A stretch of DNA of 64,000 nucleotides from Solwaraspora sp. WMMD792 (GTDB lineage: Bacteria; Actinomycetota; Actinomycetes; Mycobacteriales; Micromonosporaceae), in NCBI RefSeq assembly GCF_029626105.1, contig NZ_JARUBH010000009.1, forward strand, positions 930,001 to 994,000. Direction: 5' to 3'. Shown here piece by piece: positions 29,803 to 52,912 of the stretch. The translations under genes were made by a program, and so were the position numbers. The notes beneath the pieces are model-generated. The model was given only the letters and a program-made list of their open reading frames with translations. It was not told the DNA's origin and did not search any database. Position 1 is the stretch's first letter. The number at the start of each line of letters is the position of its first letter.

Positions 29803-29825
29803 AGAAACAATTCTCGGAGGTTGCC

Positions 29826-32382: not shown

Positions 32383-32418
32383 TTGACCTGGTGATCCAAA
32401 AACGTACACTGTCAGTGT
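32383..32418 (+). promoter_or_regulatory. LIV-transporter promoter with overlapping palindromic operator
   Basis: -35 TTGACC (32383-32388), 16-base spacer, -10 TACACT (32405-32410). The perfect palindrome ACACTGTCAGTGT (32406-32418) covers the -10 and the start site. A repressor bound here would block transcription. The same CACTGACAGTG core lies in the thiolase promoter. The pattern suits a TetR dimer. Confidence 0.65.
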
Positions 32419-32423
32419 AATTA

Positions 32424-33290
32424 ATGCCCCCGGCCAAGGGACGGGCGATGGGACGAGGACTCGGACTGCGAAACGTCGGGGTGCGCTTCGGTGGGCTCAC
32501 CGCCCTCGACGACGTCTCCCTCGACGTGCCGCCCGGCACCGTGATCGGGGTGATCGGCCCGAACGGCGCAGGTAAGACCACCCTGTTCAACGTCGTCTGT
32601 GGATTCGTGTCGCCGGACGTCGGCACGATGACCCTGGACGGGCAGCCGTTCCGGCCCCGCCCGCACCGGCTCACCCGACTCGGGATCGCCCGCACCCTGC
32701 AGGGCACCGGACTCTTCGCCGGGCTCACCGTCCTGGAGAACGTGATGACCGGGGCCAACCACCGCGCCCGGACCGGCTTCCTCGCCGCCCTGTTCGCACT
32801 GCCCCGGGCCGACCGTGACGAACGGCGGCTGCGTGCTGAGGCGCTCGACACCCTCGACCGGCTCGGCGTCGCCGCACACGCGGCACGGCTGCCGGGCACC
32901 CTGCCGTTCGCGGTCCGCCAGCGGGTGGCGCTGGCTCGGGCGCTCGTCGCCCGGCCCCGCCTGCTGCTGCTCGACGAGCCGGCCGGCGGGCTCGGCGACG
33001 AGGACGTCAGGCAACTCGCCGACCTGATCCGCGACCTGCCCGGTCAGGCCGTCGACCCCTGCGCGGTGCTGCTCGTCGAGCACCACATGGACCTGGTCAT
33101 GTCCACCTGCGACCAGGTCGTCGTGCTGGACTTCGGCCGGGTCGTCGCGACCGGCACCCCTGAGCAGGTCCGCGCCGCTCCCGCGGTCGTCGAGGCGTAC
33201 CTCGGCGCGGCGGTCGACGACCCGGCCCTCACATCCGGGCCCCGCTCGGCCGCGGCACCGCAACCGCCCGCGACAGCGGACGGGCGGTGA
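32424..33290 (+). CDS. LIV-type ABC transporter ATP-binding protein (LivG-like)
   Basis: 288 residues. One of two ATPases of a branched-chain-amino-acid-type importer. Walker A is GPNGAGKTT near residue 50, Walker B LLLLDEPAGGLGDED, and the H-loop lies in LLVEHHMD. The signature motif is degenerate (LPFAVRQRVALARAL instead of LSGGQ), which is common in LivG. The ATG at 32424 lies seven bases after the likely transcription start; an ATG at 32448 after AAGGGACGGGCG is an alternative. First gene of the five-gene importer set; only four bases separate it from the next. Confidence 0.88.
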   Translation: MPPAKGRAMGRGLGLRNVGVRFGGLTALDDVSLDVPPGTVIGVIGPNGAGKTTLFNVVCGFVSPDVGTMTLDGQPFRPRPHRLTRLGIARTLQGTGLFAGLTVLENVMTGANHRARTGFLAALFALPRADRDERRLRAEALDTLDRLGVAAHAARLPGTLPFAVRQRVALARALVARPRLLLLDEPAGGLGDEDVRQLADLIRDLPGQAVDPCAVLLVEHHMDLVMSTCDQVVVLDFGRVVATGTPEQVRAAPAVVEAYLGAAVDDPALTSGPRSAAAPQPPATADGR

Positions 33291-33294
33291 CCCC

Positions 33295-34017
33295 GTGACC
33301 GCCGAGGAGCTGCTCACCGTCCGGGACCTTGCCGCCGGGTACGGGGCCGTGCCGGTCCTGCGGGACGTCGACCTGACCATCCGCGCCGGCACCATCGTCG
33401 CCGTGGTGGGTGCCAACGGCGCCGGCAAGACGACGCTGCTGCGGACCCTCTGCGGCATGGTCCCGGCGAGTGCGGGACGGGTGGTGCTCGCCGGCGCGGA
33501 CCTGCGCGGCGTACCGGTCGAGGAGGTGGTCCGGCGGGGCATGGCGCACGTGCCGGAAGGGCGTGGGGTGATCGGCGAGCTGACCGTCCACGAGAACCTG
33601 CGACTCGGTGGGCTCTGGCGGCGCGACCGGGCCGACGCGGCCCGTGCCCTCGACGAGGTCTATCAGCTCTTCGAACCGCTGGCCCGGCGGCGCCGATGGC
33701 ACGGCCACCAGCTCTCCGGCGGGGAGCGGCAGATGCTCGCCCTCGGTCGGGCGCTCGTCGCCCGTCCCCGGCTGCTGCTGCTCGACGAACCGTCACTCGG
33801 CCTGGCGCCCCGGGTGATCACCCAGATCATGGCGCTGCTCCGGCGGCTGCGGGACGAGACCGGACTGACCGTCCTGCTCGTCGAGCAGAACGTCCACGGC
33901 GCACTCTCCGTCGCCGACGAGGCGGTGGTCATGTCCCTGGGCCGGATCGTCGTGCGGGCTCCCGCCGCGCGACTGCGCGACGACGAATCGCTGCGCCACC
34001 ACTATCTCGGCTTCTGA
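33295..34017 (+). CDS. LIV-type ABC transporter ATP-binding protein (LivF-like)
   Basis: 240 residues from GTG at 33295. Walker A GANGAGKTT, signature QLSGGERQMLALGRAL, Walker B LLLLDEPSLGLAP, and switch LLVEQNVHGAL; the RGVIGELTVHENL and MAHVPEGRG parts are typical of LivF. It pairs with the LivG-like ATPase to drive import through the two permeases downstream. The substrate need not be an amino acid: this transporter class also imports urea, amides and aromatic or short organic acids. Confidence 0.92.
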   Translation: MTAEELLTVRDLAAGYGAVPVLRDVDLTIRAGTIVAVVGANGAGKTTLLRTLCGMVPASAGRVVLAGADLRGVPVEEVVRRGMAHVPEGRGVIGELTVHENLRLGGLWRRDRADAARALDEVYQLFEPLARRRRWHGHQLSGGERQMLALGRALVARPRLLLLDEPSLGLAPRVITQIMALLRRLRDETGLTVLLVEQNVHGALSVADEAVVMSLGRIVVRAPAARLRDDESLRHHYLGF

Positions 34018-34057
34018 CCGCCGAATCCCGGATCTCCGACCGCACCAGGAGGCCCCG

Positions 34058-34936
34058 TTGGACCGCTTCCTCTTCCTCACCCTCGACGGGCTGTCGCGAG
34101 GCGCGGTCTACGCCGCGTTCGCGCTGGCCCTCGTCCTGATCTGGCGGGCCGCCCGGGCGGTCAACTTCGCCCAGGGCGCGATGGCCGCCGCCACCGCGTA
34201 CGTCGGCTACGGCGTCGCCGCCGCGACCGGCTCGTACTGGATCGGCTTCCTGACCGCGATCGCCGCCGGTCTGCTGCTCGGCGCCGCCGTCGAGCGGATC
34301 GTCATGCGGCACGTCGGGCACGCCTCCCCGCTCAGCCCGGTGATCGTGGCGCTCGGGCTGGTCCTGGTCATCCAGGCCGCGCTGGGCATCGTGTACGGCA
34401 ACGAGTTCCGCCCGGCGCCGACGCCGCTGTCCCGCTCCGCCGTCACGGTCGGCGGGCTGCGCCTGCTCTCCCCGTACGATCTGTTCGTCTTCGGCGCCGT
34501 CGGGGTCGTCGTGGTCGCGCTGGCGTGGATCTTCGCCCGGACCGCCGTCGGCCTGCGGATGAGGGCGGCGGCCTTCGCCCCGGACGTGGCCCGGTTGCTC
34601 GGGGTACGGGTCGGCGGGATGCTCACCCTCGGCTGGGCGCTCGCGTCGGCCGTCGGGGCGCTCGCCGCGATGCTGATCGTCCCCACCGAGCTCGGCCTGC
34701 ACCCGAACGCGATGGACCTGGTCTTCGTCTCGGCGTTCACCTCGGCCGTGGTCGGTGGTCTGGAGAGCCCACCCGGGGCGGTGGTCGGTGGCCTCGCCGT
34801 CGGTCTGGCCCTGTCCTACGTGGGCGGCTACGTGGGCAGCGACGTCACCCCGCTCGCCGTCCTGACACTGCTGCTGGCGGTGCTGCTGATCCGACCGGGC
34901 GGACTGTTCGCCACGACGACGGCGAGGCAGGTGTGA
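34058..34936 (+). CDS. LIV-type ABC transporter permease (LivH-like)
   Basis: 292 residues from TTG at 34058, chosen because AGGAGG lies five bases before it. About eight membrane segments. The start LTLDGLSRGAVYAAFALALVLIW, seen as DGLSRGAVYAAFALALVLIW, is typical of LivH (G-x-x-x-G-A-x-Y-A-L-x-A). VNFAQGAMAA is the family's N-F-A-x-G motif. The end VVGGLESPPGAVVGGLAVGL, with the GG-x-x-S/P-G-A-x-x-G pattern, is the cytoplasmic coupling region. It overlaps livM by four bases (GTGA). Confidence 0.88.
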   Translation: MDRFLFLTLDGLSRGAVYAAFALALVLIWRAARAVNFAQGAMAAATAYVGYGVAAATGSYWIGFLTAIAAGLLLGAAVERIVMRHVGHASPLSPVIVALGLVLVIQAALGIVYGNEFRPAPTPLSRSAVTVGGLRLLSPYDLFVFGAVGVVVVALAWIFARTAVGLRMRAAAFAPDVARLLGVRVGGMLTLGWALASAVGALAAMLIVPTELGLHPNAMDLVFVSAFTSAVVGGLESPPGAVVGGLAVGLALSYVGGYVGSDVTPLAVLTLLLAVLLIRPGGLFATTTARQV

Positions 34937-35985
34937 GCGCCTACACGTTGCCCCGTCACCTCGGCCTGCTCGCCGTCGGCGTACTGGCGGTGTTGGCGAC
35001 CAGCTACCTGCTGGAGCCGTACCGGCTGTTCCAGGCCGCGACCGTGGCCGCCTTCCTCTGCGCCACCGCCGGCCTGACCATCCTCACCGGCCTGAGTGGG
35101 CAGCTCTCCCTCGGCCACGGTGCGCTGATGGCGGTCGGCGCCTACAGCCTGGCGCTCAGCCAGCGTGCCCTCGCCGAGCGCGGCCTGACCGGCGGCGGGG
35201 CGCTGCCGATCTCGCTGCTGGTGGCGGTGCTGGTCACCACCGCCCTCGGCGCGGTGATCGGGGTGGCGGCCGCCCGCATCCGGGGGCCCTACCTGGCGGG
35301 CGTCACGCTGACCGTGGCGATCGCGGTGCCCGCGCTGACGGTCACCTTCAGTGGGGTCTTCAATGGCGAGCAAGGGCTCGCGGTGCCGCTCGCGCCACCG
35401 CCGGGCGTCCTCGGGCCGTACTTCCCGTACGAGCGGTGGCAGCTCTGGCTGGCGGCGGCGGTGACCCTGCTCGCGTTGCTGCTGCTGACGAACCTGGTCC
35501 GGAGCCGGTACGGCCGGCTGCTGCGCGCGGTCCGCGACGACGAGGTCGCCGCCGGCCTGGCCGGCCTGCCGGTGGCCGGCATCCGGGTGCTCGCCTTCGT
35601 GGTCAGCGCCGCCGCCGCCGGACTTGGCGGGGCGCTGCTCGCGTTGCTGACCCAGAACGTCTCCCCGGGAGCGTTCTCGCTGGCCCTGTCACTCTCCCTG
35701 CTGACGGCGGTGGTGGTCGGCGGGCTCGGCCGGCTCGCCGGAGCAGCCTGGGGCGCGCTGCTGCTGGTGGCGTTGCCGGAGCTGACCCACAGCCTCGCCG
35801 AGGCGCTGCCGTTGACACCGGCGTTGGCGCACCGGATGGAGGGCAACCTGCCGTTGGCGATCTTCGGGCTCACCCTCGTCCTCGTCGTGATCGTCGCACC
35901 CGGTGGGGTGCAGGGACACCTGTCCCGGCTGGCCCATGCCGCGTGGACGCGGCTGCCGCATCGGGCGGCACCACCGACCACCTGA
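34933..35985 (+). CDS. LIV-type ABC transporter permease (LivM-like)
   Basis: 350 residues from GTG at 34933, coupled to LivH by GTGA. About ten hydrophobic segments. Diagnostic parts are LTGLSGQLSLGHGALMAVGAY (S-L-G-H-x-A-F pattern), seen as GLSGQLSLGHGALMAVGAY, the loop AVRDDEVAAGLAGLPVAGIRVLAF, seen as VRDDEVAAGLAGLPV, which contacts the ATPase, and VVVGGLGRLAGAAWGALLL. A run of 16-base tandem repeats follows before the binding-protein gene. Confidence 0.88.
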   Translation: MSAYTLPRHLGLLAVGVLAVLATSYLLEPYRLFQAATVAAFLCATAGLTILTGLSGQLSLGHGALMAVGAYSLALSQRALAERGLTGGGALPISLLVAVLVTTALGAVIGVAAARIRGPYLAGVTLTVAIAVPALTVTFSGVFNGEQGLAVPLAPPPGVLGPYFPYERWQLWLAAAVTLLALLLLTNLVRSRYGRLLRAVRDDEVAAGLAGLPVAGIRVLAFVVSAAAAGLGGALLALLTQNVSPGAFSLALSLSLLTAVVVGGLGRLAGAAWGALLLVALPELTHSLAEALPLTPALAHRMEGNLPLAIFGLTLVLVVIVAPGGVQGHLSRLAHAAWTRLPHRAAPPTT

Positions 35986-35996
35986 CCACCCGACCG

Positions 35997-36099
35997 CCGC
36001 ACCCGTACCGACCCGCACCCGTACCGACCCGCACCCGTACCGACCCGCACCTGTACCGACCCGCACCTGTACCGACCCGCACCCGTACTGACCCGCACC
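35997..36099. repeat. Six 16-base tandem repeats between livM and the binding-protein gene
   Basis: Unit CCGCACCCGTACCGAC, copies starting at 35997, 36013, 36029, 36045, 36061 and 36077 plus a 7-base partial. Two copies have C to T at position 8, one at position 13. It fills most of the 164-base intercistronic gap. Confidence 0.95.
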
Positions 36100-36149
36100 G
36101 ATCAAGCACACCGTCACGACCACGCCAGCATCGAGAGAGGTGTCCGTCG

Positions 36150-37427
36150 ATGTCACCCACCCTTCGTCGCGGTCTCGCGTCCGCCGCGTCCCTGACCCTG
36201 CTCCTCGGTCTCGCCGCCTGCGGCGCCGATCCCGGTGACGATTCCGGCGTCGCGACGCCCGGCGTCACCGACACCGAGATCCTGGTCGGCACCCACATGC
36301 CGTTGACCGGGCCGGCCTCGGCCGGATACTCCACGATCGCGCCCGCCACCCGGGCGTACTTCGAGCACGTCAACGAGGCCGGTGGGGTGTACGGCCGGAA
36401 GATCAACTACAAGATCATGGACGACGGCTACAACCCGGCCACCACTCAGCAGGTGGTGCGGGAACTCGTCCTGCGGGACGGCGTCTTCGCCGTCCTCAAC
36501 GGGCTCGGCACCCCTACCCACACGGGCGTGCTCGACTTCCTGCACACCAACCGGGTCCCCGATCTGTTCGTCGCCTCGGGCAGCCGTACCTGGGACCAGC
36601 CGCAGAAGTATCCCGGCACCTTCGGGTTCAACCCGGACTACATCGTCGAAGGGAAGATCCTGGCCAGCCACGTGGCGGAGAACTTCGCCGGCAGAACGGT
36701 CTGCTTCTTCGGCCAGGACGACGACTTCGGCCGGGACAGCCTGGTCGGGGTGGAGAAGATCCTGGGCCCGGTGACCGACAAGCAGACGTACGTCACCAGC
36801 AACACCAACGTGGCACCACAGATCGGTGCGCTCAAGGCCGCCGGCTGTCAGGTGGTGATCCTGGCGACGGTGCCCGGTTTCACCGCGCTCGCCATCGGCA
36901 CCGCCGCCCGGATCGGCTTCCAACCGCAGTGGGTGGTCTCGAACGTCGGCGCAGACCACCTGACCCTGGCCAGCCAACTCGGTGAGGCGGCCGGGCTGCT
37001 GGAGGGCCTGATCGGCGTCAACTACCTGCCGATGCACAACGACGAGACGAATCCGTGGATCGTGCTGTTCCGCCAGATCCACGAGAAGTACAACGCGGAC
37101 GCGCCGTTCGACGGCAACACGGTGTACGGGATGGCGGTCGGCTACGTCTTCGTCCAGGCGCTCCAGGCGGCCGGACCCGATCTGACCCGTACGGCGCTGG
37201 TCGAGGCGGTCGAGCGGGGTGGCTTCGAAGGCCCGGGACTGGCCCCGCTGCGCTTCTCCGCCACCGACCACTCCGGGTACGGCGGGCAGCGGCTGACCCG
37301 GGTCAGCGGTGGGACGCAGGAGTACTTCGGGCCGACGTACGAGACGGATCCGGCCGATGGTCCGGTGAACGAGTACCCCGGCGAGTCGGCCACCCCGCCG
37401 GCCGACGGGATCCCGTCGGCGCCCTGA
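36150..37427 (+). CDS. LIV-type ABC transporter substrate-binding lipoprotein
   Basis: 425 residues preceded by GAGAGAGG. Signal peptide with lipobox LAAC, Cys24 lipidated. The type I periplasmic-binding fold reads TDTEILVGTHMPLTGPASAG, then GGVYGRKINYKIMDDGYNP and FVASGSRTWDQPQKYPGTFG, seen as GSRTWDQPQKYPGTFG, all typical of LivK/aliphatic amidase-sensor proteins. C-terminal LVEAVERGGFEG and an open tail rich in Pro/Glu. It captures the ligand outside the cell for the two permeases. Ligand unknown; the surrounding enzymes suggest an acid that is later activated with CoA. Confidence 0.9.
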   Translation: MSPTLRRGLASAASLTLLLGLAACGADPGDDSGVATPGVTDTEILVGTHMPLTGPASAGYSTIAPATRAYFEHVNEAGGVYGRKINYKIMDDGYNPATTQQVVRELVLRDGVFAVLNGLGTPTHTGVLDFLHTNRVPDLFVASGSRTWDQPQKYPGTFGFNPDYIVEGKILASHVAENFAGRTVCFFGQDDDFGRDSLVGVEKILGPVTDKQTYVTSNTNVAPQIGALKAAGCQVVILATVPGFTALAIGTAARIGFQPQWVVSNVGADHLTLASQLGEAAGLLEGLIGVNYLPMHNDETNPWIVLFRQIHEKYNADAPFDGNTVYGMAVGYVFVQALQAAGPDLTRTALVEAVERGGFEGPGLAPLRFSATDHSGYGGQRLTRVSGGTQEYFGPTYETDPADGPVNEYPGESATPPADGIPSAP

Positions 37428-37444: not shown

Positions 37445-38653
37445 TCAGGCCAGCCGTTCGATGATCAGGGCCATGCCCTGGCCGCCGCCGACGCACATGG
37501 TCACCAGCCCGGTCTGCCGGTCGTGCCAGCGCAGCGAGTTGATCATCGTGGTGGTGAGCCGGGCACCGGTCATGCCGAACGGGTGTCCGACCGCGATCGC
37601 GCCGCCGTTGACGTTGAGCCGGTCCCAGTCGACCCCCAACTCCTCGGCGCTCGGCACCACCTGCGCGGCGAACGCCTCGTTGATCTCCACCAGGTCGATG
37701 TCGTCGATGGACATGCCGGCCCGGGCCAGCGCCCGCCGGGACGCCTCCACCGGCCCCAGACCCATGATCTCCGGCGAGAGTCCACTCAGACCGGTGGCGA
37801 CGATCCTGGCCAGCGGCCGGATGCCGAGGTCGCGGGCCCGGGTGTCGGACATGATCACCAGAGCGGCGGCCCCGTCGTTGAGCGGGCAGGCGTTGCCGGC
37901 GGTGACCGTGCCGTCCGGACGGAACCGCGGGGCCAGCGCGGCCACCGCGTCCAGGGTGACGCCGGGCCGTGGTCCGTCGTCGGCGGTGACCACCGTACCG
38001 TCGGGCACGGTGACCGGGGTGATCTCCCGGGCCCAGAAACCGGTCGCGGCGGCCTGCTCGGCGCGGTTCTGCGAGCGGACCGCGAACTCGTCCTGGCGTC
38101 GCCGGCTGACCCCGCGCAGCCGGGCCACGTTCTCGGCGGTCTGCCCCATGGCGATGTAGACGTCGGGCAGCGCGCCGTCGTCGCGCGGGTCCCGCCAGGG
38201 CGGGGTGTCGGCGCCGGCCCGCTCCGCGGTACGGGCCCGTGCCCCGGCGAACGCCGGGTTGGTGACGTCCGGCTGCCCTTCGGGGTACCGGGACACGCAC
38301 TCCACGCCGGCGGAGATGAATGCGTCGCCCTCGCCGGCCCGGATGGCGTGCAGGGCCATCCGGGTGGTCTGCACGGACGAGGCGCAGTACCGGGTGACGG
38401 TGGTGCCGGGCAGTTGGTCGTGGCCGAGCAGGGTGGCGACCACTCGGGCGAGGTTGTGTCCCTGCTCGCCGACGGGCTGCCCGCATCCGAGCATCAGGTC
38501 GTCGAGTTGGTCGGCGGGCAGTTCGGGGACCTGGTCGAGTGCGGCCCGGACGATGGCGGCGGCCAGGTCGTCCGGGCGCAGGTCCCGCAGCGAACCCTTG
38601 GCGGCCCGCCCGATCGGTGAGCGGGCGGCGGCGACGATCACTGCGTCGGGCAT
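37445..38653 (-). CDS. Thiolase (acetyl-CoA acyltransferase)
   Basis: 402 residues. Cleaves 3-ketoacyl-CoA with CoA, the last step of a beta-oxidation round. The acyl-enzyme cysteine is in TRYCASSVQTTRMAL near residue 89; the catalytic histidine in GGAIAVGHPFGMTGAR and the second cysteine in MCVGGGQGMAL near the C-terminus are intact. The start VIVAAARSPIGRAAKGSL is standard. It stands alone on the minus strand. Its promoter region carries the GCACTGACAGTGC palindrome shared with the transporter, so the two are likely co-regulated. Confidence 0.94.
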   Translation of the reverse strand: MPDAVIVAAARSPIGRAAKGSLRDLRPDDLAAAIVRAALDQVPELPADQLDDLMLGCGQPVGEQGHNLARVVATLLGHDQLPGTTVTRYCASSVQTTRMALHAIRAGEGDAFISAGVECVSRYPEGQPDVTNPAFAGARARTAERAGADTPPWRDPRDDGALPDVYIAMGQTAENVARLRGVSRRRQDEFAVRSQNRAEQAAATGFWAREITPVTVPDGTVVTADDGPRPGVTLDAVAALAPRFRPDGTVTAGNACPLNDGAAALVIMSDTRARDLGIRPLARIVATGLSGLSPEIMGLGPVEASRRALARAGMSIDDIDLVEINEAFAAQVVPSAEELGVDWDRLNVNGGAIAVGHPFGMTGARLTTTMINSLRWHDRQTGLVTMCVGGGQGMALIIERLA

Positions 38654-38682: not shown

Positions 38683-38695
38683 GCACTGACAGTGC
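38683..38695. promoter_or_regulatory. Palindromic operator GCACTGACAGTGC upstream of thiolase
   Basis: Perfect 13-base inverted repeat 30 bases upstream of the thiolase start. On the minus strand TTGACT lies upstream at a distance that would put the palindrome on the -10 region. The core CACTGACAGTG equals that in the transporter promoter at 32406-32418. Confidence 0.65.
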
Positions 38696-38748: not shown

Positions 38749-38794
38749 ATGGGATATCTCATTGTTGACGAGGTGAAGGTCCCTCTCGTACTAT
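38749..38794 (+). promoter_or_regulatory. Promoter of the SDR-kinase-ACAD operon with a second palindrome
   Basis: TTGACG (38765-38770), 18-base spacer, TACTAT (38789-38794), then seven bases to the ATG at 38802, so the mRNA is leaderless. Upstream, ATGGGATATCTCAT (38749-38762) is a 14-base inverted repeat with two unpaired positions and may be an operator. Confidence 0.55.
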
Positions 38795-38801
38795 ACGCAC
38801 T

Positions 38802-39572
38802 ATGAGTGAAGCTTGCGGCAGGCTTTCCGGGCGGGTCGCGCTGGTGACCGGGGCCAGCCGCGGGATCGGGCTGGCCATCGCCCGCCGGCTGGTCGCCGAG
38901 GGCGCCCGGGTCGGCCTCACCGCCCGGCGGGCCGGCGCCCTGGACGAGGCGGTCGCCGCCCTCGGTGGTCCGGATCACGCCGTGGCGGTCCCCGGCGGAA
39001 CCGACGATCCGGACCACCGCGCCGCCGCGGTACGCCAGGTCACCGAGACCTTCGGGCCGGTGGACGTCCTGGTCAACAACGCCGGGATCAACCCGGTCCA
39101 CGGCCCGCTGGCCGGGCTCGACCTGGCGGCCGCCCGCAAACTGCTGGAGGTCAACCTGCTCGGCGCCCTCGGCTGGGTGCAGCAGGTCTGCGCCGCCGGG
39201 ATGACCGACCGGGGCGGCTGCGTCGTCAACGTCTCGTCGATCGCCGGGCTGCGGCCGTCGCCGGGCATCGCGTTCTACGGCGTGACGAAGGCCGCCGTCA
39301 ACCACCTCACCGCCAGCCTTGCCGTCGAACTCGCCCCGTCGGTGCGGGTGAACGCCGTCGCCCCCGCCGTGGTCCGGACCCGGTTCGCCGCCGCCCTCTA
39401 CGAAGGGCGGGAGGAGGAGGTCGCCCGGGCGTACCCGCTGCGTCGGCTCGGCGAGCCGACCGACGTGGCCGGTGCCGTCGCCTTCCTCGCCTCGGCCGAC
39501 GCGGCCTGGATCACCGGCCAGACCCTGGTCGTGGACGGCGGGATCTCGCTGGCCAGCCGGACCACCGGGTGA
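38802..39572 (+). CDS. Short-chain dehydrogenase/reductase (FabG-like)
   Basis: 256 residues. NAD(P)-dependent oxidoreductase of the classical SDR type. Cofactor loop TGASRGIGLAIA, NNAGINPVHGP, catalytic serine in NVSSIAGL and Y-x-x-x-K in FYGVTKAAVNHL. The end WITGQTLVVDGGISLA is classical. It is the first gene of an operon of two SDRs, an APH-like kinase, an ACAD and a TetR gene. In the levulinate (lva) pathway one SDR reduces a 4-ketoacyl-CoA to 4-hydroxyacyl-CoA; this or the next gene could play that part. Confidence 0.9.
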   Translation: MSEACGRLSGRVALVTGASRGIGLAIARRLVAEGARVGLTARRAGALDEAVAALGGPDHAVAVPGGTDDPDHRAAAVRQVTETFGPVDVLVNNAGINPVHGPLAGLDLAAARKLLEVNLLGALGWVQQVCAAGMTDRGGCVVNVSSIAGLRPSPGIAFYGVTKAAVNHLTASLAVELAPSVRVNAVAPAVVRTRFAAALYEGREEEVARAYPLRRLGEPTDVAGAVAFLASADAAWITGQTLVVDGGISLASRTTG

Positions 39573-40477
39573 GCGGACCGGGACTGGCCGTCGCCGGTGC
39601 GCGGGTGGTGGTGACCGGTGCCGGGTCCGGCATCGGTGCCGCGTTGGCCGCCCGGTTCGTGGCCGGCGGCGCCCGGGTCGTCGTCAACGACATCGCCTCC
39701 GACGCCGTGCGTGCCGTCGCCACCCGACTCGGCGCGGCAGCCTTCCCCGCCGACGTGGCGGAGCCGGCGGCGGTGTCCGCCCTGGTCGGCTATGCCCGAC
39801 GACATCTCGGCGGCATCGATCTGTACTGCGGTAACGCCGGTGTCGCCGGGAACGGCCCGGGGGAGCCGACCGACGAGGTCTGGCACCGCGCCTGGCAGGT
39901 CAACGTGATGTCCCACGTGTACGCCGCCCGGGAGTTGCTCCCACACTGGCTCGCCGCCGGCCGGGGCCGACTGCTCGTCACCGCCTCCGCCGCCGGCCTG
40001 CTCACCATGCTCGGCAACGCTCCGTACTCGGTGACCAAGCATGCCGCCGTCGGCTACGCGGAGTGGTTGCGGGCCACCTACGCGCACCGCGGTGTGACCG
40101 TCCAGTTGCTCTGCCCGCGTGGGGTGCGCACCCCGATGCTGGCGGCCGGCGGGGACCGGGCCGCCGCCCAGCTCGACGACGACGCCGTCACCCCCGAGCA
40201 GGTCGCCGACGCTGTCGGAGAGGCCCTGACCGACGACCGGTTCCTGGTCCTGCCACATCCGGAGGTCGCCACGTACCACGCCCGCCGGGCCGCCGATCCG
40301 CAGCGCTGGCTGCGGACGATGAACCGTGCGCAGCGGGAGCTGGAGCGACGCGGCGACCTGCCCGGTGCGGTGCCGCGACCGGCGGACGGTGCGGTGCCGC
40401 GACCAGCGGACGGTGTGGTGCCGCGACCGGCGGACGGTGTGGTGCCGCGAGTAGCGGACGGCGCGGCCGATGACTGA
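39569..40477 (+). CDS. Short-chain dehydrogenase/reductase with repetitive tail
   Basis: 302 residues from GTG at 39569, overlapping the previous stop (GTGA). Cofactor loop TGAGSGIGAALAAR, NDIASD cofactor-selecting acidic strand, CGNAGVAG, catalytic S in VTASAAGLL and YSVTKHAAVGYAEW. The core ends near residue 265. The tail is four 8-residue repeats of the form AVPRPADG encoded by a 24-base minisatellite, and reads into the kinase gene by eight bases. Reaction unknown; likely oxidises or reduces a hydroxyacyl-CoA intermediate. Confidence 0.86.
   Translation: MSGPGLAVAGARVVVTGAGSGIGAALAARFVAGGARVVVNDIASDAVRAVATRLGAAAFPADVAEPAAVSALVGYARRHLGGIDLYCGNAGVAGNGPGEPTDEVWHRAWQVNVMSHVYAARELLPHWLAAGRGRLLVTASAAGLLTMLGNAPYSVTKHAAVGYAEWLRATYAHRGVTVQLLCPRGVRTPMLAAGGDRAAAQLDDDAVTPEQVADAVGEALTDDRFLVLPHPEVATYHARRAADPQRWLRTMNRAQRELERRGDLPGAVPRPADGAVPRPADGVVPRPADGVVPRVADGAADD
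40364..40459. repeat. 24-base minisatellite in the SDR C-terminus
   Basis: Four in-frame copies starting at 40364, 40388, 40412 and 40436, each coding G-x-V-P-R-x-A-D. The 24-base period keeps the frame. Confidence 0.9.
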
Positions 40478-41549
40478 GCTGCCGGGCCTGGACCTGACCC
40501 GGCTCGCCGCCCACCTCGACCGGGCCGGGCCGGGGTTGTTCGGCGGGGCGCTGACCGGCGAGGTGATCGCGGGCGGTCGGTCCAACCTGACCTATCGGGT
40601 CAGCGACGGGCGACGGACGCTGGTCCTCCGTCGTCCGCCGCTGGGACACGTCCTGGCCACCGCGCACGACATGGGGCGGGAGGTCCGGGTGCTGCGGGCA
40701 CTCGCGACCACCGCGGTGCCGGTCCCCGCGATACTGCACCACTGCCCGGATCCCGGCCCGGTCGGTGCGCCTTTCTACCTCATGGAGTTCGTGCCGGGGC
40801 CGGTCCACCGCACCGCAGCGGAGCTGGCCCGGCTCGGGCCGGCGGGGGTCCGCACGCTGGCCCTGGCACTCGTCGACACCCTGGCCGACCTGCACGCGAT
40901 CGACCCCGCCGGGGTGGGGCTGGCCGGCTTCGGTGTCCCGGTCGGCTTCGCCGCCCGGCAGGTGCGCCGCTGGAAGCGGCAACTGGACGCCTCCCGCAGC
41001 CGGGACCTGCCGGGCGTCGACGAACTGCACGCCCGGCTGGCCGCGTCCGTACCGACCGCCGGGCCCGGCACCGTGCTGCACGGCGACCTGCGGGCGGACA
41101 ACGTGGTGGTGGGCGATCTGCGGGCGGACGTCGGTCCGGCCGGCGGACACGGTCCGGGCGGGGGGCACGGTCCGGGCGGGGGTCACGGTCCGGTCGGGGG
41201 TACGCCGGGCGGTCGGCGTCCGATCCGGGCCGTGCTGGACTGGGAGATGTCCACCCTCGGGGACCCGCTGACCGACCTCGGGCTGACCCTGGTGCACGCC
41301 GGGCGGGTCCGGGTGCCGGGGCAGCCCGGCACCGACGAGCTGGCCGCCCGGTACGCCCGACGCAGCGGCCGGTCCCTGGACGACCTGCCCTGGTACCTCG
41401 CCTTCGGTGCGTACAAGCTCGCCGTCATCCTCGAGGGCGTCCACTACCGCTACGTACGCGGCCAGACCGTCGGCGAGGGATTTGACACGGTCGGTCAGCG
41501 GGTGCTTCCGCTGGTCGCCCAGGGACTACGCGAGTTGGCGAGGCGCTGA
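40470..41549 (+). CDS. APH-like phosphotransferase, LvaA / ACAD10-11 kinase-domain type
   Basis: 359 residues. Kinase fold of the aminoglycoside-phosphotransferase superfamily: GGRSNLTYRVSDGRRTLVLRRPP at the nucleotide loop, seen as AGGRSNLTYRVSDG, Brenner motif VLHGDLRADNVVV, and DFG-equivalent AVLDWEMSTLGDPLTDLG. This branch occurs with acyl-CoA dehydrogenases; P. putida LvaA phosphorylates 4-hydroxyacyl-CoA. Between the Brenner motif and LDWE lies an extra glycine/histidine repeat (GGHGPGGGHGPGGGHGP) from an 18-base repeat. Starts inside the SDR gene and its stop shares one base with the ACAD start. Confidence 0.88.
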   Translation: MTELPGLDLTRLAAHLDRAGPGLFGGALTGEVIAGGRSNLTYRVSDGRRTLVLRRPPLGHVLATAHDMGREVRVLRALATTAVPVPAILHHCPDPGPVGAPFYLMEFVPGPVHRTAAELARLGPAGVRTLALALVDTLADLHAIDPAGVGLAGFGVPVGFAARQVRRWKRQLDASRSRDLPGVDELHARLAASVPTAGPGTVLHGDLRADNVVVGDLRADVGPAGGHGPGGGHGPGGGHGPVGGTPGGRRPIRAVLDWEMSTLGDPLTDLGLTLVHAGRVRVPGQPGTDELAARYARRSGRSLDDLPWYLAFGAYKLAVILEGVHYRYVRGQTVGEGFDTVGQRVLPLVAQGLRELARR

Positions 41550-42775
41550 TGGACTTCGGCTACGACCAGACGACCGCCCGGCTGCTGGCCGAGCTGCGCG
41601 ACTTCATGACCGGGTGGGTCCACCCGGCGGAGGAGGAGTTCGAGCGTCAGGTGCGGGAGGCACCCGGGCGGTGGGAGCCGCCGCCGGTGCTGGACCGGCT
41701 GCGGGCCGAGGCCCGGCGCCGTGGGCTGTGGAACCTGTTCCTGCCCGGCGAGTACGGGGCCGGCCTGACCAACTTGCAGTACGCCCCGCTGGCCGAGCTC
41801 ACCGGATGGTCGCCTTCGCTGGCACCGGCCGCGCTCAACTGCGCCGCGCCGGACACCGGCAACATGGAGCTGCTGGCCCGGTTCGGCACCCCGCAGCAGC
41901 GCGAACGCTGGCTGGTGCCGCTGCTCGACGGTCGGATCCGGTCGGCCTTCGCGATGACCGAGCCTGCGGTGGCCTCGTCGGACGCGACCAACATCGCCAC
42001 CCGGATCGAACGCGACGGTGAGACGTACGTGGTCAACGGTCGCAAGTGGTTCGTGACCGGGGCGATGGACCCGCGCTGCGAGCTGTTCATCGTGATGGGG
42101 CGTACCGATCCGGCCGCGCCCGTGCGGCGGCAGCAGAGCCAGCTGCTGGTGGAGCGGGACACCCCGGGCGTCACGGTCCGCCGGGGCATGTCCGTCTACG
42201 GGTACGAGGACCGGGAGCACGGCGGCCACGCCGAGATCGACTTCGTGGACGTACGGGTGCCGGCGGCGAACCTGATCGACGTGGAGGGCTCCGGTTTCGC
42301 CATCTCCCAGGCCCGGCTCGGGCCGGGCCGGATCCACCATTGCATGCGGCTGCTCGGGATGGCCGAGCGGGCGTTGGAGCTGATGTGCCGGCGGGTCGCC
42401 GGCCGGCGGGCGTTCGGCGGGCCGTTGGCCGACCAGGGAGTGATCCGGGACTGGATCGCCGAGGCCCGGGTGCGGATCGAGCAGGCCCGGCTGCTGGTCC
42501 TCAAGGCCGCCTGGTTGATGGACACGGTCGGCAACCGGCAGGCGCACACCGAGATCCAGGGGATCAAGATCGTGGTGCCGGCGGTGGCCGAATGGGTCGT
42601 CGACCGGGCGGTGCAGGCGCACGGCGCGGCCGGGGTCAGCCAGGACACCGTACTGGCCCGGTTCTGGGCCCGGGCCCGGACGCTGCGGCTGGCCGACGGC
42701 CCGGACGAGGTGCACCGGCAGTCGTTGGCCCGGCGCGAACTACGGCGCCACGGCGGCGACGCGCGGCGTGTCTAG
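41549..42775 (+). CDS. Acyl-CoA dehydrogenase, LvaC / ACAD11 type
   Basis: 408 residues, start and previous stop share one base (TGATG). The N-terminus WVHPAEEEFERQV, then FLPGEYGAGLTNLQYAPLAE, seen as FLPGEYGAGLTNLQYAPL, and FAMTEPAVASSDATNI are marks of the ACAD10/11 branch. The C-terminal RTLRLADGPDEVHRQSLAR has Asp-Gly-Pro-Asp-Glu where MCAD has its YEG catalytic glutamate, also as in that branch. With the kinase it would eliminate phosphate from 4-phosphoacyl-CoA to give a 2- or 3-enoyl-CoA; this role is transferred from lva and ACAD11 work. Confidence 0.88.
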   Translation: MDFGYDQTTARLLAELRDFMTGWVHPAEEEFERQVREAPGRWEPPPVLDRLRAEARRRGLWNLFLPGEYGAGLTNLQYAPLAELTGWSPSLAPAALNCAAPDTGNMELLARFGTPQQRERWLVPLLDGRIRSAFAMTEPAVASSDATNIATRIERDGETYVVNGRKWFVTGAMDPRCELFIVMGRTDPAAPVRRQQSQLLVERDTPGVTVRRGMSVYGYEDREHGGHAEIDFVDVRVPAANLIDVEGSGFAISQARLGPGRIHHCMRLLGMAERALELMCRRVAGRRAFGGPLADQGVIRDWIAEARVRIEQARLLVLKAAWLMDTVGNRQAHTEIQGIKIVVPAVAEWVVDRAVQAHGAAGVSQDTVLARFWARARTLRLADGPDEVHRQSLARRELRRHGGDARRV

Positions 42776-42868
42776 ACTCGGCCGGGGAAGCCCACCGGGC
42801 GCCCGGCCGGTTCCGACGGGCGTGACGCAGTGCCGGGTGGTCCGGCGGCGGGTGTCGAAGGAGGCGTG

Positions 42869-43489
42869 ATGGGCAGGGGCGCCGAGGCGCCGGGCCGGGT
42901 CGACGGGCGCAGCGCCCGGGCGGAGCGGACCCGGGCGGCGATCGTCGAGGCGCATCTGGCGCTGATCTCCGAGGGCGACCTGCGGCCCACCGGGGAACGG
43001 ATCGCGGAACGGGCCGGGATCTCGCTGCGGACCCTGTGGACCAACTTCAAGGACATGGAAACCCTCTTCGAAGCCAGTGGCGAGGAGGTGCTGCGGCAGC
43101 AGGAGGCGGCGTACCGGCCGATCTCGCCGAACCTGCCGTTGGCCAAGCGGGTGGACGCGTACTGCCGGCAGCGGGCCCGGTTGTTGCAGCTCATCGCGCC
43201 GTCGGCCCGGGCGGCGCAGATGCGTGAGCCGCTCTCTCCGCAGCTGCACCGGAACCGGCTCAAGCACATCGACCGGGTCCGGGCGGAGGTCGAGCAGCTC
43301 TTCGCGGTGGAGCTTGACCGCGCGGGGGCGGGCCGCGAGCAGCTGGTGCAGGCCGTGACGGTCGCCAGCATGTGGTCGGCGTGGTCGATGCTGCGCGACG
43401 GGCTCGGACTCGGGGTGGACCAGGCCCGGGCGGTGATGACCCGGACGGTCGGCGCGTTGCTGTCGACCGGCTCCGCCGATTCACCCTGA
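42869..43489 (+). CDS. TetR-family regulator at the end of the SDR-kinase-ACAD operon
   Basis: 206 residues, ATG after AGGAGG at 42859-42864. The HTH is ERTRAAIVEAHLALISEGDL and TGERIAERAGISLRTLWTNFKDMETLF, seen as RIAERAGISLRTLWTNFKDM. The C-terminal ligand domain is all-helical with no family I can name. By position it probably controls this operon, and it is a candidate binder of the CACTGACAGTG sites at the transporter and thiolase promoters, with an acyl-CoA as effector. That assignment is inference. Confidence 0.85.
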   Translation: MGRGAEAPGRVDGRSARAERTRAAIVEAHLALISEGDLRPTGERIAERAGISLRTLWTNFKDMETLFEASGEEVLRQQEAAYRPISPNLPLAKRVDAYCRQRARLLQLIAPSARAAQMREPLSPQLHRNRLKHIDRVRAEVEQLFAVELDRAGAGREQLVQAVTVASMWSAWSMLRDGLGLGVDQARAVMTRTVGALLSTGSADSP

Positions 43490-49766: not shown

Positions 49767-49773
49767 AATGCCC

Positions 49774-50943
49774 ATGGACCTTCGCCTCTCCGCCGAACAG
49801 GCCGCGCTCCGCGAACTCGCCGCGCGGTTCGCCGACCGCGAGGTGGCGCCGTACGCCGCCGACTGGGACCGCCGGGAGGCGGTCGACCCGGCGATCGTCG
49901 GCAAGCTCGGCGAGGTCGGCTTCCTCGGCCTCACCATCGACGAGCCCTACGGCGGATCCGGCGGCGACCACCTGTCGTACTGCCTGGTCCTGGAGGAACT
50001 GGGTCGGGCGGACGCCGCCGTTCGTGGCATCGTCTCGGTCACCCTCGGCCTGGTCGCCAAGACCATCGCCAGCCACGGCAGCGACGAGCAGCGGACCCGG
50101 TGGTTGCCCCGGCTGTGCGCCGGAACGGCCCTGGGCTGTTTCGCGCTGACCGAACCGGACGTCGGCTCGGACGCCGCGTCGCTGACCACCCGGGCCGTGC
50201 GCGACGGCGACGACTGGTTGCTGACCGGCAGCAAGATGTTCATCAGCAACGGCACCACCGCCGACGTCGCCCTGGTGTTCGCCCGCAGCGGCGGGGCCGG
50301 CCCGCGGGGCATCACCGCCTATCTGGTCCCCACCGACGCCCCCGGCCTGCAGCGCCGCGAGATCCACGGCAAGCTCGGCCTGCGCGGACAGGCCACCGCC
50401 GAGCTCGCCCTCGACGGGGTCCGGGTGTCCGACGCCGACCGGCTCGGCCCGGTCGGCGGCGGCTTCCGGATCGCCCTCGCCGCCCTCACCAAGGGCCGGA
50501 TGTCGGTCGCCGCCGGCTGCGTCGGCCTCGCCCAGGCCTGCCTGGACACGGCGGTACGGCACGCGGGCCAGCGGACCCAGTTCGGCCGGCCGATCGCCGG
50601 ACACCAGCTGGTCCAACGGTTGCTCGCCGGGATCGCGGTCCGGACCGATGCCGCCCGGCTGCTGGTCTGGCGGGTCGCCGACCTGATCGACCGGGGCGAG
50701 CCGTTCGCCACCGAGGCGTCCATGGCCAAACTGTTCGCCAGCGAGGCGGCGGTCGACGCGGCCAACGACGCGATCCAGGTGCTCGGCGGGTACGGCTACA
50801 TCGACGAGTACCCGGTCGGCAGGTACCTGCGCGACGCCCGGGTCACCACCCTCTACGAGGGCACCAGCCAGATCCAGGAACTGCTCATCGGCCGCGCCCT
50901 CACCGGCGTGAACGCCTTCTCGCACCCACCGTCCACCAGCTGA
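49774..50943 (+). CDS. Acyl-CoA dehydrogenase
   Basis: 389 residues from MDLRLSAEQ; an ATG two codons upstream is an alternative. Classical short-chain-type ACAD: GFLGLTIDEPYGGSGGDHLS, seen as LTIDEPYGGSGGDHLSY, CFALTEPDVGSDAASLTTRA, MFISNGTTADVALVFARSG and RTQFGRPIAGHQLVQRLLA. The end is VLGGYGYIDEYPVGRYLRD, then TLYEGTSQIQELLIGRAL, in which the YEG glutamate is the expected catalytic base. First gene of a five-gene operon under the TetR operator. Confidence 0.92.
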   Translation: MDLRLSAEQAALRELAARFADREVAPYAADWDRREAVDPAIVGKLGEVGFLGLTIDEPYGGSGGDHLSYCLVLEELGRADAAVRGIVSVTLGLVAKTIASHGSDEQRTRWLPRLCAGTALGCFALTEPDVGSDAASLTTRAVRDGDDWLLTGSKMFISNGTTADVALVFARSGGAGPRGITAYLVPTDAPGLQRREIHGKLGLRGQATAELALDGVRVSDADRLGPVGGGFRIALAALTKGRMSVAAGCVGLAQACLDTAVRHAGQRTQFGRPIAGHQLVQRLLAGIAVRTDAARLLVWRVADLIDRGEPFATEASMAKLFASEAAVDAANDAIQVLGGYGYIDEYPVGRYLRDARVTTLYEGTSQIQELLIGRALTGVNAFSHPPSTS

Positions 50944-50956
50944 ACCAGGGAGCACC

Positions 50957-51715
50957 ATGTCCAGATTCACCGACCGTACCGCCGTGGTGACCGGCGCCGC
51001 CCAGGGCATCGGCGCGGCGACCGCGCGCCGGCTCGCCGGCGAAGGAGCCGCCGTGGCCGTCGTGGACCTCGCCGCCGACGGCGCCAGGACCGTCGCCGAC
51101 GAGATCACCGCAGCCGGTGGCCGGGCCGTCGCGATCGGCTGCGACGTCACCGACGCCGACGCGGTGGAGGCGATGACCGCGCAGGTCGTGGAGACCTTCG
51201 GCGGCCTGCACGTACTGGTCAACAACGCCGGGATCACCCGCGACAACCTGCTGTTCAAGATGCCGGTCGAGGAGTGGGACGCGGTGCTCGCCACCAACCT
51301 GACCAGCATGTTCCTGTGCTGCCAGGCGGCCCAGCGGCAGATGGTCACCGCCCGGTACGGCCGGATCGTCAACCTCAGCAGCCGGTCCGCGCTGGGCAAC
51401 CGGGGCCAGGCCAACTACGCAGCGGCCAAGGCCGGGGTACAGGGACTCACCGCCACCCTGGCGCTGGAACTCGGCCCGTTCGACATCGCGGTCAACGCGG
51501 TCGCGCCGGGGTACGTGGCGACCCCGATGACCGCGGCCACCGCGGTCCGCACCGGCAGCGACCCGGCCGCCCACCAGCAGCGGGCCGCCGAGCAGATCCC
51601 GTTGCGCCGGGTCGCCCAGCCGGCCGAGATCGCCTCGGTCATCGCCTTTCTGGCCAGCGACGACGCCTCGTACGTCACCGGGCAGACCCTCTACGTCAAC
51701 GGCGGCGCCCGCTAG
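50957..51715 (+). CDS. 3-oxoacyl-ACP/CoA reductase-like SDR (FabG type)
   Basis: 252 residues, 13 bases after the ACAD stop, with CAGGGAGC upstream. Cofactor loop TGAAQGIGAATA, VNNAGITRDNLLFKM (the FabG N-A-G-I-T-R-D-x-L motif), catalytic S in NLSSRSALG and YAAAKAGVQGLT. End YVTGQTLYVNGG. In this operon it most likely acts as a 3-hydroxyacyl-CoA dehydrogenase between the MaoC hydratase and a thiolase. Confidence 0.92.
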   Translation: MSRFTDRTAVVTGAAQGIGAATARRLAGEGAAVAVVDLAADGARTVADEITAAGGRAVAIGCDVTDADAVEAMTAQVVETFGGLHVLVNNAGITRDNLLFKMPVEEWDAVLATNLTSMFLCCQAAQRQMVTARYGRIVNLSSRSALGNRGQANYAAAKAGVQGLTATLALELGPFDIAVNAVAPGYVATPMTAATAVRTGSDPAAHQQRAAEQIPLRRVAQPAEIASVIAFLASDDASYVTGQTLYVNGGAR

Positions 51716-51739
51716 ACCCGGCGCAGCGAAGGAGCGGAC

Positions 51740-52912
51740 ATGGACTTCGGACTCTCCACTGAGGAACGGGCGATCCGGGACACGGCGCGGGACTTCATCA
51801 CCCGGGAGGTGGTGCCGCTGGAGTCGGAGCTGCTGCGCCGCGAGCGGGCGCACCAGCCCGGGCTGACCCGCGACGAGCTGCGCGAGCTGCAGCGCCGGGC
51901 CCGCACGTTCGGCTTCTGGGGCCTGGCCACCCCCGAGGAGTACGGCGGGATGGACCTGCCGGCCGTCATGCAGTCGCTGATCTGGACTGAGATCGGCCGG
52001 ACGGTGGTGCCGTTCCGGTTCGGCGGCGAGGCGGACAACATCCTGTTCCGGGCCGACCCCGACCAGCGGCGCGAGTACCTGCTCCCGACCATCGAGGGGG
52101 AGCGCGCCAGCTGTTTCGCGATCACCGAGCCGGGCGCCGGTTCCGACGCGGCGAACATCAGGTTCCGCGCCCGCCGCGACGGCGACGACTGGGTGCTCAA
52201 CGGGGAGAAGACCTTCATCACCGGGGGCAACGACGCGGACTTCGCCATCGTCGTCGCGGTGACCGATCCCGAACGCGACGTACGCGCCGGCGGGGCCACC
52301 GCGTTCCTGGTGGACCGGTCGATGGGGTGGCGCTCGGAGTTCATCCCCACGATGGGCGAGGGCGGCCCGGCGGCGTTGATCTTCGACGACGTACGGGTCC
52401 CGGGCCGCAACGTGCTCGGCGCGGTCGGCGAGGGGTTCCGGCTGGGCATGGAATGGATCGGCAAGGGGCGCTACACCATCCCCTCACACGCCGTAGGCAT
52501 CGCCGAACGGGCCCTGCGGATGGCGATCGACCACGCCACCACCCGGCACACCTTCGGCCGACCGATCGGGGACAACCAGGCGATCAGCTGGATGATCGCC
52601 GACTCGGAGACCGAGCTGGAGGCCGCCCGCTGGCTCATCCTGCGGGCCGCCTGGACCGTCGACGCGGGTCTCGACCCACGCCACGCCTCCTCCATGGCGA
52701 AGCTCTACGGCGCCGGGATGGTCAACCGCGTGGTGGACCGGGTGCTGCAGATCCACGGCGGCATGGGCTACACCCGTGAGCTGCCGATCGAGCGGTGGTA
52801 CCGGCTGGTCCGGCTCTACCGCATCTTCGAGGGCACCGACGAGATGCAACGGCTGATCATCGCCCGCGACCTGCTGCGCGGCTACACCATGTTGGGAGGG
52901 CATCTGGCATGA
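51740..52912 (+). CDS. Acyl-CoA dehydrogenase
   Basis: 390 residues. Second dehydrogenase of the operon. TPEEYGGMDLPAVMQSLIW in the N-terminal domain; CFAITEPGAGSDAANIRFRA and NGEKTFITGGNDADFAIVVA in the middle; HTFGRPIGDNQAISWMIAD, QIHGGMGYTRELPIERWYR and EGTDEMQRLIIARDLL at the end. The glutamate of FEGTDE fits the catalytic base. It resembles ACADs acting on branched or larger acyl-CoAs, though the substrate cannot be set by eye. Coupled by ATGA to the MaoC gene. Confidence 0.92.
   Translation: MDFGLSTEERAIRDTARDFITREVVPLESELLRRERAHQPGLTRDELRELQRRARTFGFWGLATPEEYGGMDLPAVMQSLIWTEIGRTVVPFRFGGEADNILFRADPDQRREYLLPTIEGERASCFAITEPGAGSDAANIRFRARRDGDDWVLNGEKTFITGGNDADFAIVVAVTDPERDVRAGGATAFLVDRSMGWRSEFIPTMGEGGPAALIFDDVRVPGRNVLGAVGEGFRLGMEWIGKGRYTIPSHAVGIAERALRMAIDHATTRHTFGRPIGDNQAISWMIADSETELEAARWLILRAAWTVDAGLDPRHASSMAKLYGAGMVNRVVDRVLQIHGGMGYTRELPIERWYRLVRLYRIFEGTDEMQRLIIARDLLRGYTMLGGHLA

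Follow-up and report, generated by a model that had tools for sequence, protein, structure and literature searches.

What reaction is carried out by a bacterial operon in which two short-chain dehydrogenases (SDRs) are followed by an APH-like kinase and an acyl-CoA dehydrogenase (ACAD)? The question is raised by positions 38802-42775 of a 64,000-nucleotide stretch of the Solwaraspora sp. WMMD792 genome (contig NZ_JARUBH010000009.1, positions 930,001 to 994,000; hereafter the window), for which an initial annotation had proposed a levulinate-like, 4-hydroxyacyl-CoA catabolic module. The kinase–ACAD route has been treated in mammals in 2024 and 2025 (PMC11342911, PMC12440821), and in bacteria it is described for levulinate in pseudomonads (PMC6692424) and for one Burkholderia pair in vitro (PMC11342911). 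Very probably, the operon codes for the ACAD10/11 reaction in split form, within a regulated acyl-CoA degradation island in which a 4-hydroxyacyl-CoA would be phosphorylated and the phosphate eliminated. This reading rests on the order of the genes, on the families, residues and folds of their products, on a linkage conserved among genomes and on a palindrome shared by promoters, and the chemistry is taken from the work on ACAD10/11 and lva; the roles of the SDRs and of an importer, and a TetR-like protein as binder of the palindrome, we infer. The four genes are the following:

38802..39572, + strand: SDR1, which opens the operon with an ATG start, a short-chain dehydrogenase of 256 aa (Pfam PF13561, 5.6e-56)
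39569..40477, + strand: SDR2, a short-chain dehydrogenase of 302 aa, GTG start, overlapping SDR1 by 4 nt (Pfam PF00106, 4e-39)
40470..41549, + strand: APH/ACAD11-type kinase of 359 aa, overlapping SDR2 by 8 nt (Pfam APH, PF01636, 2e-45)
41549..42775, + strand: LvaC/ACAD11-type ACAD of 408 aa, overlapping the kinase by 1 nt (Pfam Acyl-CoA_dh_1/M/N)

All four open reading frames are intact and overlap end to end, as the initial annotation had described. By sequence, the ACAD belongs to the ACAD11/LvaC branch. In a phmmer search of the PDB, it matches mouse and human ACAD11 (8v3u, 8v3v, 2wbi) and 4hr3 at E values of 1e-120 to 1e-122, and the next family follows at 7e-41. The entry 4hr3, a Mycobacterium abscessus protein deposited as a putative acyl-CoA dehydrogenase, is of the same branch and 50% identical to the window ACAD. 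The residues named for ACAD11, R626, R631, H634, R637 and the catalytic D753 (PMC12440821), align with R256, R261, H264, R267 and D383 (the structure chain being numbered one lower than the paper), and C265 and M266 are present as well, making the HCMR motif complete. None of the other four ACADs in the window has the full set of five: R261 alone is common to three of them and R267 to one, and at the position of D383 they carry E, E, G and F. The ADGPDEVH motif, noted earlier in place of the usual catalytic YEG, is indeed found at residues 382-389, where the other four read EGG, FGT, EGT and EGT. Across the branch, R....R..HCMR occurs in 42 of 44 rows and A[DNE]GPDEVH in 39 of 44. In a tree of 49 selected rows, built by a quick method and with very long outgroup branches, the window ACAD groups with its homologues from sister islands and with the rest of the branch, against five ordinary ACADs; within its own genome it is the sole gene of the branch, the next match being an ordinary ACAD of the same island (ACADd, 7e-48). 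The AlphaFold model (pLDDT 84.5, 30 sequences) finds 4hr3 as its best fold match, together with 8v3u, which is ACAD11 with 4-hydroxyvaleryl-CoA, and 2wbi. Compared with the other island-bearing genome of the genus (G114), the gene has no stops and a dN/dS of 0.23. Judged by these likenesses, the protein is predicted to be a 4-phosphoacyl-CoA phosphate-eliminating enzyme.

The kinase has 9o56, ACAD11 and 3dxp as its solved relatives in a PDB search, and its catalytic Asp, Asn and DFG-like Asp (D206, N211 and D257) are invariant in alignments of 12 and of 34 kinases. By alignment, D206, N211 and R163 correspond to D220, N225 and R176 of ACAD11, in which R86 and R176 are named as the CoA-contacting residues (PMC12440821). 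Mammalian ACAD11 is homologous to the window pair over the full length of both its kinase and ACAD domains, with the same catalytic aspartates, the HCMR motif and the upstream arginine. The window pair differs from ACAD10/11 in being two separate proteins, encoded in an operon with two SDRs, and in a disordered insert in the kinase; ACAD10 furthermore has a HAD domain (PMC12440821) that the window pair lacks, and the residue comparison was made with ACAD11. In the Burkholderia-type pair, exemplified by B. pseudomallei (PMC11342911), kinase and ACAD are likewise separate. The window protein is predicted to be a 4-hydroxyacyl-CoA kinase, and no second copy is present in the genome at E<=1e-4.

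In the levulinate route, a further small protein, LvaB, has to be accounted for, which we take to be the 12-kDa partner of LvaA and a member of the DUF6285 family (PF19802). PF19802 has no match in the Solwaraspora genome at E<=0.01, and the control search matched in 2 of 14 genomes. Across the phylum, DUF6285 is found in 18 of 198 genomes, and 9 of 12 DUF6285 loci have a kinase within 1.5 kb that is 24-28% identical to the window kinase. These loci served as a stand-in for LvaA/LvaB-type kinases, LvaA itself being outside the tree. In a tree of 59 kinases built by a careful method, the DUF6285-partnered kinases split off with a support of 100/100 and a branch of 1.54, and the opposite side holds mouse ACAD11 and the Burkholderia, Bosea, Deinococcus and actinobacterial kinases, that of the window included; mouse ACAD11 groups with four proteobacterial kinases, and the window kinase lies among those of related islands (100/99). 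The B. multivorans kinase also groups with ACAD11; it is 33% identical to that of the window, and its ACAD 57%, with different neighbours around them. The rows comprise 8 of the 9 kinase-bearing DUF6285 loci (the partial L112 being excluded), L118-L120 and a selection of other kinases; the two Variovorax rows, L118 and L119, are weak, with DUF6285 matches of only E 0.05 and 0.8. Terminal stops were coded X in three rows, and L126 and L125 were left out of alignments A2 and A3, respectively, because the match extended beyond a stop codon. In the comparison with ACAD11, the kinase stands on the ACAD11 side and the ACAD inside the ACAD11/LvaC branch. Given this placement and the missing DUF6285 match, the pair is read as a split ACAD11 rather than as an LvaA–LvaB–LvaC set. 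It should be noted that the ACAD beside one DUF6285-partnered kinase, on a Thermus oshimai plasmid (L120 3793-4950), has the R....R..HCMR motif and is 38% identical to the window ACAD.

These data bear directly on whether the island is a levulinate operon proper, importing levulinic acid and degrading it after an SDR has reduced levulinyl-CoA to 4-hydroxyvaleryl-CoA, which is considered unlikely. In gene content, the resemblance to the lva operon of P. putida lies in the adjacent kinase, LvaC-type ACAD and SDRs and in a CoA ligase within the same island. The window differs in lacking a DUF6285 match, in having a TetR-like gene instead of LvaR, a sigma54-type regulator (PMC6692424), in having a LIV ABC importer instead of the symporter LvaF, and in adding a full beta-oxidation set and a hydrolase; four further ACADs, an alcohol dehydrogenase (ADH), an aldehyde dehydrogenase (ALDH), MaoC and FabG exceed the needs of a C5 acid. 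No LvaR-type regulator or LvaF-type symporter was seen in the island, where TetR-like, LuxR-type and LIV importer genes stand instead (no genome-wide search was made). There is some support in print for bacteria managing without LvaB: P. citronellolis LA18T grew on levulinate, and in its lva-like cluster (PCLA_07f0390-0396) homologues of the kinase, LvaC and LvaD were reported, with lvaB not found (PMC6692424). In addition, the B. pseudomallei kinase and ACAD orthologues substituted for the ACAD10 domains in vitro in a paper in which the word LvaB is absent (PMC11342911). The P. citronellolis cluster also has a histidine phosphatase family gene (PMC6692424), and none is found among the scanned genes of the window island. 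Of the earlier proposal of an lva or ACAD10/11 pair, the supported part is that the two proteins are separate halves of an ACAD10/11 enzyme with the ACAD11 residues kept, and an lva operon is not supported in the form proposed.

The pairing of kinase and ACAD is not due to chance. Of 584 confirmed loci, the 80 with the best kinase matches, all from named actinobacteria, were compared; in 76 of them, the kinase is directly followed by an LvaC-like gene (>=45% identity, same strand, gap <150 bp); in the other four (L133, L134, L170, L199), there is no LvaC-like gene in the 8-10 kb read downstream. At the same identity, SDR2 is present in 63 of the 80, MaoC in 19, SDR1 in 18, and ACADa, ACADb and FabG in 10 each, some loci being short and SDR2 being counted within the fetched flanks. 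In Tsukamurella, Amycolatopsis and Cryobacterium, FabG, MaoC, kinase, LvaC, ACADa and ACADb form one run, and in Bosea, Deinococcus and Paraburkholderia, a plasmid-borne kinase–ACAD pair lies near SDRs. This linkage, the ACAD11-type residues in both proteins and the position in the kinase tree argue against an antibiotic-resistance or otherwise unrelated small-molecule kinase standing by accident beside an ordinary beta-oxidation ACAD. Such a coincidence is hardly credible; in its favour, PF01636 also covers aminoglycoside phosphotransferases, and an APH(3') model gives a weak match of 25 bits against a cut-off of 205. Aminoglycoside resistance was rejected, and plain beta-oxidation was considered as a reading and dropped.

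A different reaction is suggested by the fold of the kinase. The AlphaFold model (pLDDT 87.1) has 3dxp as its best match (8.6e-22), followed by the 25-hydroxysteroid kinase 9fsg (1.4e-13) and then Rv3168; none of the 50 matches listed is to the kinase domain of ACAD11. By its entry titles, 9fsg is an APH-fold kinase that acts on a substrate hydroxyl, as predicted for the window kinase, to which it is 21-22% identical. The kinase might accordingly phosphorylate a non-C4 hydroxyl of a bulky terpenoid or steroid acid, with elimination to follow and ACADa and ACADb handling the bulky acyl-CoA; these two score below the cut-off in every case against models for pimeloyl-CoA dehydrogenase and IpdE2, and accompany the kinase–LvaC pair in 10 of the 80 loci. 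This is improbable, given that the ACAD11 phosphate pocket is kept in the window ACAD and that 3dxp is a far better match than 9fsg.

For the split ACAD10/11 reaction, the published chemistry (PMC12440821, PMC11342911) suggests the following course. A carboxylic acid would be taken in by the LIV-type importer and joined to CoA, and its 4-oxo group, if present, would be reduced to a 4-hydroxy group by SDR1 or SDR2. Alternatively, both SDRs together might invert the 4-hydroxyl, a role proposed because the ACAD10 kinase prefers the R 4-hydroxyl (PMC11342911). The kinase, through D206, would phosphorylate the 4-hydroxyl of the acyl-CoA; the ACAD would then hold the phosphate via R256, H264 and R267 while D383 takes the C2 proton, and the hydride would be parked on FAD, the phosphate expelled and the hydride returned. 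The product would be a 2-enoyl-CoA, formed with no electron acceptor from outside, and beta-oxidation would be completed by MaoC, FabG and thiolase. Both SDRs carry adh_short/adh_short_C2 domains; SDR1 is of the PRK07231 subfamily (NCBIfam, 293 bits, cut-off 215), and SDR2, which has 22 further matches in its own genome, each of at most 38% identity, is a candidate LvaD-like oxidoreductase. The C-terminal tail of SDR2 is formed by a minisatellite of 24-bp repeats (40363-40466), which did not align in G114.

The enzymes before and after this step would come from the surrounding island, which spans about 27 kb, from ~27.6 to 54.9 kb of the window (DUF2855 gene to CoA ligase). The CoA ligase, thiolase and LIV importer noted earlier as nearby are all recovered there by Pfam or NCBIfam matches:

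28784..29677, + strand: PETase/cutinase-family hydrolase (PF12740, 5.9e-121; polyester hydrolases and cutinases in the PDB)
29799-31049 and 31046-32233, + strand: ACADa and ACADb, perhaps a two-subunit ACAD (Pfam; NCBIfam pimC/IpdE2-type models below cut-off)
32424..37427, + strand: LIV/HAAT-type ABC importer, by synteny and Pfam, with livG 32424-33290 (PF00005/PF12399), livF 33295-34017, livH 34058-34936 (PF02653), livM 34933-35985 and binding protein 36150-37427 (PF13458); livF and livM assigned by position and translation
37445..38653, - strand: thiolase, an acetyl-CoA acetyltransferase transcribed away from SDR1 (732 bits against the NCBIfam model PRK07851, cut-off 580)
42830..43489, + strand: TetR-like regulator, start possibly at 42866 (PF00440, E 1.4e-4; its 22 bits fall short of the cut-off, 24)
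43538-46345: LuxR-type regulator, after the TetR-like gene
46437-47555 and 47552-48970, - strand: zinc ADH (PF08240/PF00107) and ALDH (PF00171)
49768..54938, + strand: ACADc, FabG-like SDR, ACADd, MaoC hydratase and AMP-binding CoA ligase (53370-54938), by Pfam

A second TetR gene (TetR2) is also located in the island, downstream of the operon. A palindrome, CACTNNNAGTG, is present at three places in the window, where 0.48 would be expected (none of 100 shuffles reached 3); it is conserved across genera and marks the promoters of the importer, thiolase and kinase operon:

32407..32417: palindrome CACTGTCAGTG, operator-like, just ahead of livG
38684..38694: palindrome CACTGACAGTG, operator-like, in the divergent thiolase/SDR1 promoter region
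38765..38794, + strand: sigma70-like promoter TTGACG-18-TACTAT ahead of SDR1 (1 found against 0.1 expected, 5-kb region scanned)
38798..38808: palindrome CACTATGAGTG, just after a -10-like hexamer, over the SDR1 start codon

Across 42 island stretches, CACTNNNAGTG is found 41 times against 6.6 expected (five simulations; some stretches counted twice). Thirty-seven of these sites precede a matched island gene by no more than 350 bp, and the remaining four stand, by inspection, just upstream of ACADa matches. With each palindrome counted once, 35 sites remain in ~805 kb from 18 genomes, and 83% of the sites have T at -2 and the opposite A. There is none in 299 kb of control sequence (15 same-family loci without the island) and one in 1.34 Mb of 70 named loci (L130-L199), a few of which have island genes. 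The palindromes overlap or adjoin promoter-like hexamers, which suits a repressor, and the TetR-like gene after LvaC is the presumed island repressor and a candidate binder of the palindrome. Between ACADb and livG, at 32280-32312, an inverted repeat CAAAGATCATGCAT...ATGCATGATCTTTG is also present, the core of which occurs once in the genome.

Other genera of the family share this gene set, and G036 and G037 keep its order as well. In a table of 24 islands, which includes the window (entered as 100 throughout) and G114, the other rows are genomes with flanks chosen by SDR2, kinase or LvaC matches; 94 of 150 genomes have an SDR2 match, and three (G032, G078, G104) with SDR2 alone or with TetR were excluded. 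Identity cut-offs vary by gene (for example, SDR1 >=60%, TetR >=50%). SDR2 is found in all 24, a count by construction because the islands were so selected, followed by TetR in 21, LvaC and the importer in 18 each, and kinase, SDR1 and ACADa/b in 15 each. LuxR and ADH occur in 14 each, ALDH in 13, and thiolase, TetR2, ACADc, FabG and ACADd in 11 each. At least 10 have MaoC, at least nine the CoA ligase and at least eight the PETase-family gene, these end-gene counts being lower bounds because some flanks stop inside the island (that of G006, for example, where its contig begins, and those of G051, G100 and G132 at stretch ends).

Several of these data weigh against the assignment to a split ACAD11 in a regulated island. 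First, the kinase is missing in nine of the 24 islands, three of which keep LvaC (G044, G081, G143) and six of which lack the LvaC-like gene as well (G051, G058, G071, G100, G112, G132), so that the step is either dispensable to the island or served in trans. All nine genomes do have a kinase match elsewhere, in eight cases with an adjoining LvaC-like gene, but this is a weak argument for supply in trans because 96 of 150 family genomes have a kinase match. Second, the likeness of the kinase to that of mouse ACAD11, 30-35% identity in two alignments, is little above that of the DUF6285-partnered kinases (24-30%, same alignment), and the equivalent of R86 is not placed, as window R70 aligns with R84 in the paper's numbering. 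Third, a stricter form of the palindrome, RCACTNNNAGTGY, has nine places in the genome, two in the island and seven elsewhere, and its reversed control is commoner, with 18 places; enrichment across the genome was therefore rejected, and the palindrome is claimed for island promoters only. Finally, in the comparison with G114 the kinase has a dN/dS of 0.44, near the top of the 22 genes compared, partly via an insert close to the catalytic loop, seen in this genus only, which could impair the enzyme:

41115..41204, + strand: low-complexity hypervariable kinase insert of ~30 residues (~216-245), between HGDLRADN and LDWE

This insert consists partly of GGHGPGG repeats and is present in none of the other 11 kinases of alignment A1. 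In G114, it is different, with extra copies resembling the catalytic-loop segment (GDLRADD...), and the rest of the kinase is nearly unchanged. Residues 220-247 of the model have pLDDT <50, and the model is folded elsewhere. The insert is read, from its sequence, as a minisatellite in a tolerated loop; an 18-bp tandem repeat at 41123-41212 forms part of it. As for the islands with LvaC and no kinase, the loci L073 (G143:C13), L219 (G081) and L224 (G044) contain SDR1, SDR2 and LvaC with no kinase between, and the kinase match is elsewhere in the genome.

What substrate, then, would a split ACAD10/11 reaction serve here? As its kinase and ACAD agree in key active-site residues with the pair by which mammals strip the C4 hydroxyl from fatty acids, the bacterium probably uses a 4-hydroxy or 4-oxo acid as food. 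Levulinate is possible and not favoured, and a gamma-lactone or a longer hydroxy acid are further candidates; the additional ACADs, together with ADH and ALDH, point to a bigger acid that bears a hydroxyl or aldehyde at its end. The PETase-family enzyme, cutinase-like, precedes ACADa or livG in eight of the 24 islands, which makes cutin-like polyesters a serious if tentative candidate. Given this count, the enzyme was rejected as a constant component of the island. It is one of four such hydrolases in the genome, its N-terminus resembles a signal peptide by eye, and the protein is identical in G114 (dN 0). A self-contained polyester-to-acetyl-CoA system is entertained as a tentative and rather doubtful extension. 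In such a system, the hydrolase, if secreted, would free hydroxy acids from cutin or suberin; the LIV importer would take them in, ADH and ALDH would oxidise the end hydroxyl, and the CoA ligase and ACADs would start beta-oxidation. An even-carbon in-chain hydroxyl, such as that at carbon 10 of 10,16-dihydroxypalmitate, would reach carbon 4 after three rounds, where the kinase and LvaC would remove it, and a single TetR acting at the operator TNCACTNNNAGTGNA would control the whole. Among the papers listed by a literature search on cutin monomers, beta-oxidation and actinobacteria, none seemed relevant from its title and opening lines. If true, the proposal would give the phosphate-elimination chemistry a natural and abundant soil substrate.

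The levulinate-like annotation is thus right in family and probably in chemistry, and its label is unproven. Literature searches that combined the kinase–ACAD route with actinobacteria or bacterial gene clusters showed, among the hits listed, no paper on an actinobacterial version, and the string 'Actinobac' is absent from the 2025 ACAD11 paper. The pair is widespread in the family: of 150 genomes, 96 have a kinase match (E 1e-60) and 122 an ACAD match (E 1e-90), which makes its natural substrates a genuine gap. Defined targets for induction, gel-shift and growth tests are offered by the conserved palindrome, by SDR2 as a partner and by the sister islands that have no kinase.

Related arrangements are also found outside the island type. 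In ten fetched loci, a second type of kinase–LvaC pair occurs without such SDRs nearby, the kinases forming their own clade; one of them (L080) has a sugar ABC transporter, a glycosidase and a LacI-type regulator as neighbours, as judged by eye without a family search. The LvaC-like gene also occurs on plasmids with no kinase seen nearby (L096, L097, L099); that of Sulfitobacter pontiacus (L099) combines an LvaC-like ACAD with two SDRs, a CoA ligase and a hydratase, and no kinase is present in the 13 kb read. Annotated HAD, histidine or tyrosine-type phosphatase genes recur near such kinases in other lineages (L064, L069, L100, L103, L104, L120), and none was seen in the window island.

Within the genus, the whole island is present in G114 and missing in five of seven genomes sampled (G034, G060, G079, G093, G105), in which the kinase, LvaC-like ACAD and SDR2 have no match at the cut-offs used and the neighbourhood from dapB to thyX-dapA-rnj is conserved. 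In G093, a lone MaoC gene (L091 5744-6208), 76% identical to that of the island, is located at what would be the island's downstream edge, and it may be either a remnant of loss or an older resident.

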